From Litoreibacter sp. (lineage in GTDB: Bacteria > Pseudomonadota > Alphaproteobacteria > Rhodobacterales > Rhodobacteraceae): a DNA stretch of 44,427 nucleotides. The translations under genes and the position numbers were made by a program. Under the pieces are notes generated by a model that was not told where the DNA came from, did no database searches, and saw only the letters and a program-made list of their open reading frames with translations. Positions 9,662 to 31,712 of the stretch are shown here, one piece after another; position 1 is the stretch's first letter; each line of letters starts with the position of its first letter. Location of the stretch: positions 1 through 44,427 of the forward strand of contig JAPORH010000137.1 of the NCBI GenBank assembly GCA_026710325.1, written 5' to 3'.

Positions 9662-9684
9662 TGATCCACAGCTGCTTGTGGAAA
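9662..9684. promoter_or_regulatory. Pair of inverted DnaA-box-like sites upstream of nrdJ
   Basis: TGATCCACA on the plus strand and TTTTCCACA on the minus strand face each other a few bases apart. Each differs by one base from the classical DnaA box TTATCCACA. Together they form a CCACA/TGTGG dyad. They lie 23-45 bases before the nrdJ start. DnaA control of ribonucleotide reductase is known for E. coli nrdAB; its relevance here is inference. Confidence 0.35.
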
Positions 9685-9706: not shown

Positions 9707-12241
9707 ATGTCCGCCTTCGCCGCCCCAATCGCTGATCAAATCTGGGATATGAAATATCGGTTCAAACAGGCCGATGGCACGCCGATTGACGTCACGGTAG
9801 AGGACAGCTGGCGGCGCATCGCCCGCGCGCTTGCCGCGCCTGAGAAAGACCCGGCAAAGTGGGAGGACACATTCTATCACGCGCTTGAGGATTTCAAATA
9901 CCTGCCCGCAGGCAGGATCACCGCAGGGGCTGGCACGGAACGCTCGGTGACGCTGTTCAATTGCTTCGTGATGGGCACGATCCCCGACAGCATGGGCGGC
10001 ATTTTCGACATGTTGAAAGAGGCCGCGCTGACCATGCAGCAGGGCGGCGGCATCGGCTACGATTTCTCGACCATCCGGCCCAAAGGCGCGGATGTGAAAG
10101 GCGTGGCGGCGGATGCGTCGGGACCTTTGAGCTTCATGGATGTATGGGACGCGATGTGCCGCACGATCATGTCGGCAGGCTCGCGCCGCGGGGCGATGAT
10201 GGCCACGATGCGTTGCGATCACCCGGATATTGAGGGTTTTATCACCGCCAAACAGGATTCCGCCCGGTTGCGTATGTTCAACCTGTCGGTGCTGGTCACG
10301 GATGACTTCATGGCCGCCGTGAAAGCCAAAGGCGATTGGGAGCTCAAATTCGACGGCAAGACCTACAAGACGATAAAAGCGGTCGAGCTGTGGGACCTGA
10401 TCATGCGCTCCACCTATGACTTTGCCGAGCCGGGCGTGATCTTCATCGACCGCATCAATGAGGCCAACAACCTAGGGTATTGTGAGACGATTTCGGCCAC
10501 CAACCCATGCGGGGAGCAGCCATTGCCACCCTATGGAGCGTGTTTGTTGGGCTCGATCAACCTCGCGCGTCTGGTCTACTACCCGTTCGAAGAAAAGGCG
10601 CATTTGTGCGAGACGGCCTTGAATGAGCTTGTCGGCACTGCGGTACGAATGATGGACAATGTTGTTGACGCATCGCGCTTCCCATTGCCCGAACAAGCGG
10701 CAGAGGCGCAGGCGAAGCGCCGTATTGGACTCGGCGTCACGGGGCTGGCAGATGCGCTGCTGATGGTAGGTGAACGCTATGGATCAGAGGAGGCGGCGCG
10801 TCTGACCGAGCGTTGGTTGCACGCCATCGCCCGCGCCGCATATCTGGCCTCAGTGGAGCTTGCGAAGGAGAAAGGCGCCTTCCCCTTGTTCGACGCGGAC
10901 GCTTATTTGGCGAGCGGCGCAATGGAGCAAATGGACGAAGATGTGCGCGACGCGATCCGCGAACATGGCATCCGCAACGCGCTGCTGACCTCTATCGCGC
11001 CCACGGGCACGATCTCGCTCTACGCAGGCAACGTATCGTCGGGCATCGAGCCGGTCTTCGCCTATAGCTACACCCGCAAGGTGCTTCAGAAAGACGGCTC
11101 CAAGACCGAGGAAGAGGTAGTGGATTACGCCGTCCAGATGTGGCGGGAAAAGCATGGCGAGGCGGAGTTGCCCGAGTATTTCGTCAACGCCCAGACCCTC
11201 GCGCCTTTGGACCACGTACGCATGCAGGCTGCGGCGCAGAAATGGGTGGATTCGAGCATCTCCAAGACCATCAACTGCCCCGAGGATATCAGTTTCGAGG
11301 ATTTCAAAGAGGTCTACATGGCCGCTTGGGATCAGGGCTGTAAGGGCTGCACGACCTACCGGCCCAATGATGTGACGGGGTCGGTGTTGAGTGTGAGTGA
11401 ACAACCCCAAACGAGCGAAGTCGCAGAAGATGCGCACGGTCGTCTTAAAGCCGCCAGGTTGTCAGCTGGATTTAAGAGTGCCAAAGACGCTGTCGAGGAG
11501 CATGGCTGGGTTTACCAGACTTACGCAAAACATGAAAATGGCGGAGCAGGTTTTCACAAGCAAGCAGTAGAATACGCAAGCGCCTTTGGTGTGGAAGCGA
11601 GCTGGCTTTTATTGGGTTCCACCGAAACGCCCGGCATCGCCGGGCAGCCCCCGACCCTCGCCACGGGAGGGGGATTCACCCCCACCCAGGGCCAGGGGCA
11701 GCCCTCGGGAGGGGATGTGGTCTACATGTCCGAGCCGCTCGACCGGCCCAATGAGCTGGAAGGCCAGACCTACAAGGTCAAATGGCCCGATAGCGAGCAT
11801 GCGCTTTACATCACCATCAATGATATCGTGCTGAACGGGCATCGCAGGCCCTTTGAGGTCTTCATTAACTCCAAAAACATGGAGCATTTCGCCTGGACCG
11901 TGGCGCTGACGCGGATGATTTCGGCGGTGTTCCGGCGCGGGGGCGATGTGTCTTTCGTGGTGGAGGAGCTGAAGGCGGTGTTCGACCCGCGCGGGGGCGC
12001 TTGGATGGGAGGCAAATACATCCCGTCCATCCTCGCGGCCATTGGCGGGGTGATCGAACAGCATATGATCGCCACGGGGTTCATTGCGGGAGAAGGCATG
12101 GGGCTAAAGGCCGACCCGTCAGCCAAGGTCGCGGTTGTCGGTCAACGCGGCAAGGCCTGCCCGAGCTGCGGTTCCTATGAGATGCGGATGATCGAGGGCT
12201 GCATGACCTGCGCGTCTTGCGGCTATTCGAAATGCGGGTGA
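9707..12241 (+). CDS. nrdJ: Adenosylcobalamin-dependent class II ribonucleotide reductase with embedded HTH domain
   Basis: Reduces ribonucleotides to deoxyribonucleotides using a B12-generated radical. The 844-residue chain shows the NrdJ_Z layout: an N-terminal ATP-cone-like start, the barrel with NPCGEQPLPPYGACLLGSIN, the GSRRGAMMATMRCDHPDI region, a C-terminal DUF-type domain (NGHRRPFEVFINSKNMEHFA) and a Cys-rich tail (CPSCG...CASCGYSKCG) that can relay electrons. Residues 579-637 are unexpected: they read as an XRE/C1-type helix-turn-helix (RLKAARLSAGF, YAKHENG, YASAFGVEASWLLLG). Residues about 643-669 are encoded by a palindromic repeat. Both lie between the barrel and the C-terminal domain and keep the frame. 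A ribosome site AGGAGA lies 10 bases before ATG. No cobalamin riboswitch was seen upstream. Confidence 0.95.
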   Translation: MSAFAAPIADQIWDMKYRFKQADGTPIDVTVEDSWRRIARALAAPEKDPAKWEDTFYHALEDFKYLPAGRITAGAGTERSVTLFNCFVMGTIPDSMGGIFDMLKEAALTMQQGGGIGYDFSTIRPKGADVKGVAADASGPLSFMDVWDAMCRTIMSAGSRRGAMMATMRCDHPDIEGFITAKQDSARLRMFNLSVLVTDDFMAAVKAKGDWELKFDGKTYKTIKAVELWDLIMRSTYDFAEPGVIFIDRINEANNLGYCETISATNPCGEQPLPPYGACLLGSINLARLVYYPFEEKAHLCETALNELVGTAVRMMDNVVDASRFPLPEQAAEAQAKRRIGLGVTGLADALLMVGERYGSEEAARLTERWLHAIARAAYLASVELAKEKGAFPLFDADAYLASGAMEQMDEDVRDAIREHGIRNALLTSIAPTGTISLYAGNVSSGIEPVFAYSYTRKVLQKDGSKTEEEVVDYAVQMWREKHGEAELPEYFVNAQTLAPLDHVRMQAAAQKWVDSSISKTINCPEDISFEDFKEVYMAAWDQGCKGCTTYRPNDVTGSVLSVSEQPQTSEVAEDAHGRLKAARLSAGFKSAKDAVEEHGWVYQTYAKHENGGAGFHKQAVEYASAFGVEASWLLLGSTETPGIAGQPPTLATGGGFTPTQGQGQPSGGDVVYMSEPLDRPNELEGQTYKVKWPDSEHALYITINDIVLNGHRRPFEVFINSKNMEHFAWTVALTRMISAVFRRGGDVSFVVEELKAVFDPRGGAWMGGKYIPSILAAIGGVIEQHMIATGFIAGEGMGLKADPSAKVAVVGQRGKACPSCGSYEMRMIEGCMTCASCGYSKCG
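11629..11718 (+). repeat. Palindromic repeat inserted in frame in nrdJ
   Basis: It starts with a 17-base palindrome (GCCCGGC-ATC-GCCGGGC), continues with CAGCCCCCGACCCTC, and ends in GGGAGGGGG / CCCCCACC arms. Nearly the same start occurs between genes at 31656. It is translated as a Pro/Gly/Gln-rich linker right after the HTH domain of NrdJ. Confidence 0.75.
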
Positions 12242-12274: not shown

Positions 12275-12385
12275 GGCCCGGCACCGCCGGGCCGCGCCCG
12301 ACCTCCCCGTTTTGCCAAAGGCGAACTTTCAGTTCGAAGGGAGGGCGGAGGGCGCTTCGCACCCACCCGAGGTTGGGCGCGGCCC
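12275..12385. repeat. Large inverted-repeat element between nrdJ and copA
   Basis: It begins with a palindrome of the same type as the nrdJ copy (GGCCCGGC-ACC-GCCGGGCC). A 17-base arm (GGGCCGCGCCCGACCTC) then pairs with GAGGTTGGGCGCGGCCC 63 bases further on, with one mismatch (a G-T pair in RNA). It occupies most of the gap between the convergent nrdJ and copA genes, so it may serve as a bidirectional terminator. Confidence 0.7.
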
Positions 12386-31549: not shown

Positions 31550-31655
31550 ATCTGGACGTCATGACAAATTACTTGGCGTAAAGCGTGCGTGCAGAATGTG
31601 GCAGGGGTGGGGAGAGAATTGGGTTTTTGATGCTAACGCACTGATGCAAGGTTCC

Positions 31656-31712
31656 GTCCGGCATCGCCGGACAGCCCCCGACCCTCCCCCCTCGGGAGGG
31701 GGCTGTCCTTTG
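31656..31712. repeat. Intergenic palindromic repeat related to the nrdJ insert
   Basis: GTCCGGC-ATC-GCCGGAC is followed by AGCCCCCGACCCTCCC and GGGAGGGGGCTG, which pair to a second long stem. The first 30 bases match the nrdJ copy almost completely. It lies just downstream of the histone-deacetylase-like gene. Confidence 0.75.

Follow-up and report, generated by a model that had tools for sequence, protein, structure and literature searches.

A phage-repressor-like helix-turn-helix domain inside the class II ribonucleotide reductase of a Litoreibacter species, and its proposed replacement between species of Rhodobacteraceae

The stretch of DNA analyzed here (the window) comprises 44,427 nucleotides of contig JAPORH010000137.1 from the Litoreibacter sp. 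assembly GCA_026710325.1. It carries an nrdJ gene for a class II (adenosylcobalamin-dependent) ribonucleotide reductase (RNR) in which a small helix-turn-helix (HTH) domain of the XRE type is embedded between the catalytic barrel and the C-terminal domains. The features of this locus are given below in window coordinates, together with the predicted local distance difference test (pLDDT) scores of the modeled linkers.

9666..9681, + strand: exact dyad CCACAGCTGCTTGTGG (CCACA-N6-TGTGG) upstream of nrdJ, 0 mismatches, candidate operator
9707..12241, + strand: nrdJ, class II (adenosylcobalamin-dependent) ribonucleotide reductase with embedded HTH, 844 amino acids (aa), assigned by TIGR02504 and Pfam
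9740..9943, + strand: all-alpha N-terminal domain Ribonuc_red_lgN, residues 12-79, Pfam
9959..11359, + strand: catalytic barrel Ribonuc_red_lgC, residues 85-551, Pfam
11372..11422, + strand: N-side linker, residues 556-572, of which 556-571 have pLDDT <50
11423..11614, + strand: embedded 434-repressor/Cro-type (XRE) HTH, residues 573-636, five helices
11624..11758, + strand: C-side linker, residues 640-684, pLDDT <50
11628..11706, + strand: copy of a dispersed palindromic repeat rich in GC, lying within the C-side linker, from genome comparison
11768..12067, + strand: TSCPD domain, residues 688-787, Pfam
12143..12238, + strand: Cys-rich C-terminal tail, residues 813-844, from the sequence

The open reading frame (ORF) at 9707-12241 is uninterrupted on the + strand, and the peptides quoted in an initial annotation, made from the sequence alone, lie in frame within its 844 aa. 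The whole protein matched NrdJ_Z (TIGR02504) with 591 bits, above the curated cut-off of 399.95, and the barrel, all-alpha, and TSCPD domains were each recovered by Pfam above their own cut-offs. Three cysteines that we take to be catalytic or redox-active (Cys86, Cys268 in NPCGEQ, and Cys279) were invariant across 41 aligned NrdJs including that of the window, as were Cys 818, 821, 832, 835, 838, and 843 of the tail. The protein thus has the barrel, catalytic cysteines, TSCPD domain, and Cys-rich tail of NrdJ_Z and differs from it by the HTH in the linker. An intein is ruled out, since the insert follows the barrel, measures about 65 aa, and has an HTH fold. The only RNA element match at nrdJ was a single weak one, inside the gene and below the gathering score. 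In a survey of RNR insertions (PMC9669993, section 2.4), the long C-termini of class II enzymes are described as having an IscU-like domain and a zinc finger, with no mention of an HTH; we take the TSCPD domain of the window to be this IscU-like domain. The terms 'helix-turn-helix', 'HTH', and 'DNA-binding' were not found in the main text of that survey.

The presence of an HTH of the 434-repressor/Cro type at residues ~573-636, between the barrel and the TSCPD domain with its Cys-rich tail, was confirmed. A phmmer search of the PDB with the insert matched the DNA-binding domain of the 434 repressor (E 7.9e-4). AlphaFold2 modeled the insert as five helices, with pLDDT >=90 for 57 of its 104 residues; ten-residue blocks between positions 21 and 70 averaged 92-96, and blocks 11-20 and 71-80 averaged 85 and 74, respectively. 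The top Foldseek match of this model was 434 Cro (template modeling score 0.82 of target, probability 1.00, E 0.018), and no match extended down to E 0.001. Pfam and NCBIfam called no HTH family in the window protein or in its insert. Both linkers flanking the HTH are probably disordered, judging from the low confidence of the model. The XRE-like fold and the position between the barrel and the C-terminal domain were thus correctly recognized in the initial annotation, and its remark on base composition also holds (the domain spans ~11423-11614): GC content was 0.49 at 11425-11574 versus 0.53-0.66 in windows of the barrel.

Sequence comparison places the head of the window protein closest to the heads at the N terminus of phage-type (S24/CI-like) repressors. 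The best match to the insert in each of the phage and plasmid collections was an unannotated or hypothetical protein (E 3e-9 and 4e-10). Annotated relatives included an S24 peptidase (8e-10), a phage 'repressor protein cI' (4e-8), and a LexA-family regulator (2e-7), with CI and C repressors among them. CI/LexA-like (S24) repressors and 434 repressor/Cro share the HTH fold and supply the closest sequences found, but the NrdJ insert has only the DNA-binding half and sits inside an enzyme. Specifically, no S24 peptidase/dimerisation domain was found among the Pfam matches of the window protein, in which a linker and then the TSCPD domain come after the HTH. The GC content at third codon positions (GC3) was 0.46 in the insert versus 0.75 in the barrel part. 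The domain looks laterally gained, as the initial annotation had considered. The insert as a whole looks like a repressor head joined to a repeat-derived linker.

The distribution of HTH-bearing NrdJs was surveyed in genome collections holding one genome per species. Linkers were read in all 19 NrdJ-bearing genomes among 21 of the window's genus. An HTH was present in two of them, the window and G012, with different sequences, and the other 17 NrdJs were without insert, which rules out that the segment is a constant linker of Rhodobacterales NrdJ. In a sample of the family, an NrdJ match was obtained in 135 of 150 genomes, one of which (G171) is represented by a short paralogue only. At least 23 of these 135 carry an HTH at this spot, a lower bound because linkers were read in 40 fetched frames of >=801 aa (19 with HTH and 21 without) and in frames fetched earlier; the four other bearers are the window, G027, G029, and G185. 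A DNA-pattern scan of named genomes for two conserved NrdJ motifs set far apart, with no other requirement, returned 68 stretches, and all 68 long linkers could be read in frame and held an HTH-like domain by eye. The titles of these records gave Rhodobacteraceae, genera that we take to be members of that family, or broad labels (Alphaproteobacteria, Rhodobacterales, Paracoccaceae, Pseudomonadota, Proteobacteria).

HTH presence was judged by eye throughout, and by Pfam for the 77 distinct inserts that remained after duplicate removal (54 from the named-genome scan and 23 from other genomes). L006 and other truncated genes are included in these 77 and left out of the tree described below, and L025, the frame of which breaks after the HTH, is outside the 77. 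Pfam HTH_3 was matched at E<=0.01 by 70 of the 77 inserts, in contrast to the window copy. A hidden Markov model (HMM) of free-standing XRE domains touched 76 of the 77, 57 of them at E<0.01. Outside the family, 385 genomes were searched and 148 had an NrdJ match; none of the 20 frames read held an HTH, these being every one of the 18 newly listed frames of 820-900 aa plus two above 1150 aa, with frames of 800-819 aa and most above 990 aa left out and with the linker end not located by the script in three (L174, L178, L179). The pattern scan could hardly find HTHs in several other families because it needs D/E-P-x-x-R-P after the linker, which their NrdJs lack. The arrangement was seen here in Rhodobacteraceae only, other alphaproteobacterial families being thinly sampled.

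Beyond what the initial annotation had in view, many different HTHs occupy the slot in the family as a whole. The 77 inserts have no invariant column and a mean column identity of 25%; the one nearly invariant column is a proline in the tail (P97 of the window insert). Single-linkage clustering grouped them into 30 clusters at 50% identity, 18 at 45%, 8 at 40%, and 2 at 35%. We observed that HTH presence follows the NrdJ tree and that HTH identity does not. On a tree of 114 NrdJ cores, presence required 20 changes versus a shuffled mean of 37.2 and a minimum of 29 (500 shuffles). This sample is enriched for HTH-bearers (64 tips), and 13 of its HTH-less tips belong to the window's genus; removal of the HTH-less loci of that genus gave 19 changes versus 30.1, and further removal of the pattern-scan loci, leaving 58 tips, gave 12 versus 17.4, a value reached by 2 of 500 shuffles. 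HTH cluster, on the other hand, required 42 changes among the 64 bearers versus a shuffled mean of 44.4 and a minimum of 37, and at the 40, 45, and 50% cut-offs 68, 78, and 109 of 500 shuffles, respectively, were at or below the observed value.

Comparison of close relatives gave the same picture of a variable domain between conserved flanks, decoupled from phylogeny. Among enzyme cores 90-95% identical, 14 of 16 pairs differed in HTH cluster and two shared it. Seven pairs picked for close cores and differing heads were examined in 30-column DNA blocks: the flanks were mostly 76-100% identical (lowest 66%) and the insert mostly 16-60% (highest 73%). Within single genera, the clusters found were 1, 1, 3, 4, and 7 in Actibacterium and 0, 3, 3, and 4 in Sedimentitalea. 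Mean GC3 was 0.60 in the inserts versus 0.84 in the barrel part, with the insert lower in 73 of 74 genes, whereas for random barrel windows of insert length the number of genes with a lower value was 39.6 on average and never above 50 out of 72. Free-standing HTH_3 domains from 30 loci of related genomes, an unmatched baseline from genomes with a mean locus GC of 0.57, had a mean GC3 of 0.72, so the low GC3 of the inserts is partly a property of such genes.

The ratio of nonsynonymous to synonymous divergence (dN/dS) indicates that same-family heads have been under purifying selection. It was 0.10-0.34 in the 14 HTH pairs with finite dS among the 25 listed of 31 pairs, dS being infinite in the other 11 of the 25. 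Synonymous divergence was higher in the HTH than in the barrel in 24 of the 25 listed pairs (the exception is L068/L084), as expected if a head predates the allele in which it sits. The heads of L062 and L104 were each searched against 248 family genomes. For the head of L062, the seven best matches lay in NrdJ-like frames of 841-890 aa, followed by shorter frames; for the head of L104, the two best lay in NrdJ-sized frames, followed by a mixture of free-standing and NrdJ frames. Some heads therefore seem to have been long resident in nrdJ, with relatives outside it.

The C-side linker of the window contains the repeat copy at 11628-11706, after the HTH; the genome has 7 further matches to it, 72-88% identical. 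The same repeat occurs at this place in L006, an NrdJ of the same genus (in frame), and in L025 (out of frame). L025:3138-3600 (G029) is an NrdJ of another genus, in which a different HTH is followed by the same repeat and the C-terminal part is in another frame; this frame change is either a natural break or an assembly error. The repeat was also found as a short partial copy just past the nrdJ stop (12276-12303), at 31655-31702, and on other contigs (L237-L243), and the copies in L237-L239 appear intergenic, between long ORFs, as judged without annotation. Rickettsia palindromic elements are palindromic repeats read in frame within proteins; the NrdJ repeat differs in providing a linker only, beside a folded HTH, and in being in frame in the window and L006 and out of frame in L025. 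In 65 of the 77 inserts the end is a tail with P(H/Q)GD instead of the repeat, so the arrangement perhaps had at least two origins. One NrdJ without HTH (L055, from G177) retains the PEVV...PHGDVVY tail of HTH-bearers, an apparent loss of the head.

Binding to its own promoter was one role proposed for the domain in the initial annotation. As an autoregulator, the HTH would bind upstream of nrdJ and the enzyme would repress or tune its own synthesis in response to deoxyribonucleoside triphosphates (dNTPs). A candidate operator is the exact dyad at 9666-9681, which lies before the start codon and is the only match within the window; in a one-mismatch control, 66 of 100 shuffles contained one match or more. 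The stretch that holds the dyad is missing from the upstream regions aligned from seven HTH-less loci of the same genus. A like dyad was present in 2 of 61 HTH-bearing versus 0 of 47 HTH-less upstreams, and in L112, the bearer other than the window, the HTH is of another type; the dyad could represent paired DnaA-box-like sites. Across the 61 upstreams, a set of low power, neither dyads (observed 0.25, shuffled mean 0.19, 95% limit 0.48) nor 8-mers (0.73 versus a mean of 0.72) tracked HTH type. Moreover, in a related group with four different HTHs (from three clusters) and one HTH-less NrdJ, the promoters were 67-77% identical with no HTH-specific element seen. Apart from the dyad, little speaks for autoregulation, which we regard as improbable.

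Three other explanations bear on the pattern of presence and turnover. In a generic nucleoid tether, any DNA-affine HTH would suffice to hold the enzyme close to DNA, where it would supply dNTPs locally, and the identity of the HTH would shift by recombination without selection for change. This agrees with a presence that follows the tree while content does not, with the probably flexible linkers on either side, and with the mean charge of the HTH core (+1.7), which is the same as in 30 free-standing XRE domains. The speed of turnover between enzymes 90-95% identical argues against it, as does the lack of an HTH in most genomes of the family sample, in which the longer frames were read. We consider it unlikely, though among functions it comes second, after mobile-DNA conflict. 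A structural or oligomerisation domain that does not bind DNA is rather improbable; it would have its model in the phosphonate enzymes HppE, HEPD/PhpD, and methylphosphonate synthase (MPnS), which carry a Cro/C1-like helical domain of structural role inside an enzyme. These enzymes are among the PDB matches of the insert profile, and section 2.4 of PMC9669993 mentions higher-order oligomers formed by dimeric class II RNRs. On the other hand, a fixed interface would break if very different heads were swapped, and the variability of the inserts, with their single nearly invariant proline in the tail, together with probably disordered tethers on both sides, argues against one. The initial annotation had also allowed for a neutral passenger, that is, a linker that tolerates insertions and through which repressor fragments come and go without benefit. 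The missing insert in most NrdJs of the genus, the apparent head loss in L055, and the atypical GC3 are in its favor. However, the long linkers of the genome scan all held, by eye, an HTH and no other insert, presence is phylogenetically structured, and the dN/dS values are low, in part possibly from selection in donor genes. This disfavors the passenger, which we hold to be improbable.

The interpretation that we prefer, with a confidence slightly short of even, is that Rhodobacteraceae NrdJ has a kept slot for exchanged, DNA-binding HTH heads, the specificity of which turns over through conflict with, or regulation by, mobile DNA. The linker from the barrel to the TSCPD domain and Cys-rich tail would be the slot, accepting small Cro/C1-type HTH domains, and heads would be exchanged through replacement of a short segment between conserved flanks. 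Because their core charge is like that of free-standing domains, we infer that the HTHs still bind DNA. According to section 2.4 of PMC9669993, long-tailed class II RNRs are nearly all dimeric; if the HTH binds DNA, a dimeric NrdJ would therefore bear a tethered pair of DNA-binding heads. Selection would act for the presence of some head and for frequent change of its specificity. Most likely, the setting would be a conflict with phages, prophages, or other mobile DNA, or regulation by them: the window head has its relatives among repressors of these elements, and rapid exchange of recognition domains is a usual mark of conflicts of this kind. A narrower version, in which NrdJ carries an interchangeable phage-repressor-derived recognition head in genome conflict and diversifying selection replaces the head while the enzyme stays unchanged, is possible but doubtful. 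Its roles might include silencing the operators of incoming or resident phages, or sensing phage takeover of nucleotide metabolism.

Several results weigh against the preferred interpretation. When inserts and free-standing HTHs were compared together, the window insert had free-standing ones as its eight top matches (54-75 bits, the next NrdJ insert having 52.8 bits), a closeness that is suggestive only because all eight had been fetched for their likeness, and the six other inserts listed matched another NrdJ insert best. Insert diversity depends on the cut-off, one cluster taking 56 of 77 at 40% identity and 74 of 77 at 35%, so the inserts are diverse members of one broad fold rather than wholly unrelated. 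The sole pair with more than 95% core identity shares its HTH cluster. The low dN/dS may in part date from a time in donor genes, and the synonymous divergence of the HTH may be inflated by atypical codon usage. The full-length NrdJ model is of moderate quality (mean pLDDT 69.1) and has low-confidence stretches within the barrel too, which makes the disorder of the linkers uncertain. The structural XRE-like domains of HppE, HEPD/PhpD, and MPnS and the lack of an upstream motif by HTH type among the 61 upstreams of low power count here as well. Phage-borne NrdJs were rejected as the source of the heads: none of 45 readable viral linkers (49 loci, 4 unreadable) held an HTH by eye, and the XRE HMM reached a best E of 0.51 on 43 viral NrdJ linkers. 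Among the viral NrdJs, L256, L265, L257, and L267 stand out by longer linkers, about 66-165 aa in length, in which there are segments that the XRE HMM does not match.

Bifunctional enzyme-regulators such as PutA and BirA have a fixed DNA-binding domain and a known operator. They resemble NrdJ in being metabolic enzymes with a DNA-binding domain of their own, but the domain of NrdJ differs between close relatives. In HsdS of type I restriction systems, which serve in defence, target-recognition domains are exchanged between conserved flanks. Swapped domains between conserved flanks are common to both, whereas NrdJ is an enzyme of nucleotide metabolism; the likeness, drawn from the mosaics and the tree tests, concerns how the NrdJ slot evolves and not what it is, and recognition of DNA is something that we infer for NrdJ. 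A literature search for an HTH inside NrdJ, or for between-species replacement of an HTH in an enzyme, found none by title and start of abstract, subscription papers being mostly outside reach, and we know of no system that combines a metabolic enzyme with exchanged HTH heads. The novelty concerns this arrangement of a conserved enzyme with an HTH that differs between species, and the function would be as proposed above. If the heads bind DNA, one protein would join nucleotide supply to DNA recognition, and the 77 inserts would form a natural series of interchangeable modules on one scaffold, usable for binding-specificity assays. The question would then be why a ribonucleotide reductase needs a changing DNA address.

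Further observations were made on the upstream regions and on other NrdJs. A DnaA-box-like TT(A/T)TCCACA was present upstream of nrdJ at 19 of 61 HTH-bearing and 10 of 47 HTH-less loci. Matches to the Rfam transfer RNA (tRNA) family, of 39.6-47.6 bits and 103-107 nucleotides, lay just upstream of nrdJ at L023:1375-1477, L115:2978-3084, and L159:5509-5612. ARAGORN called no tRNA at these three stretches, which are perhaps a tRNA-like leader. A further class II-like reductase is encoded in the window's genome by a 1230-aa frame, whose match to NrdJ is 34% identical (G000:C62, 5201-5815), so the window NrdJ need not be essential; most related genomes on the list had frames like it. Another, shorter NrdJ type (56-58% identical) is represented by fragments near contig ends at G000:C37:48-902 and C83:63-953; the C83 match has an in-frame TAG, and paralogue matches in G020, G008, and G014 contain TGA. 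Finally, L047 (G052) and L048 (G028) carry a large in-frame NrdJ insert near residue 268 (NPCGEQ) that is intein-like in place and size.

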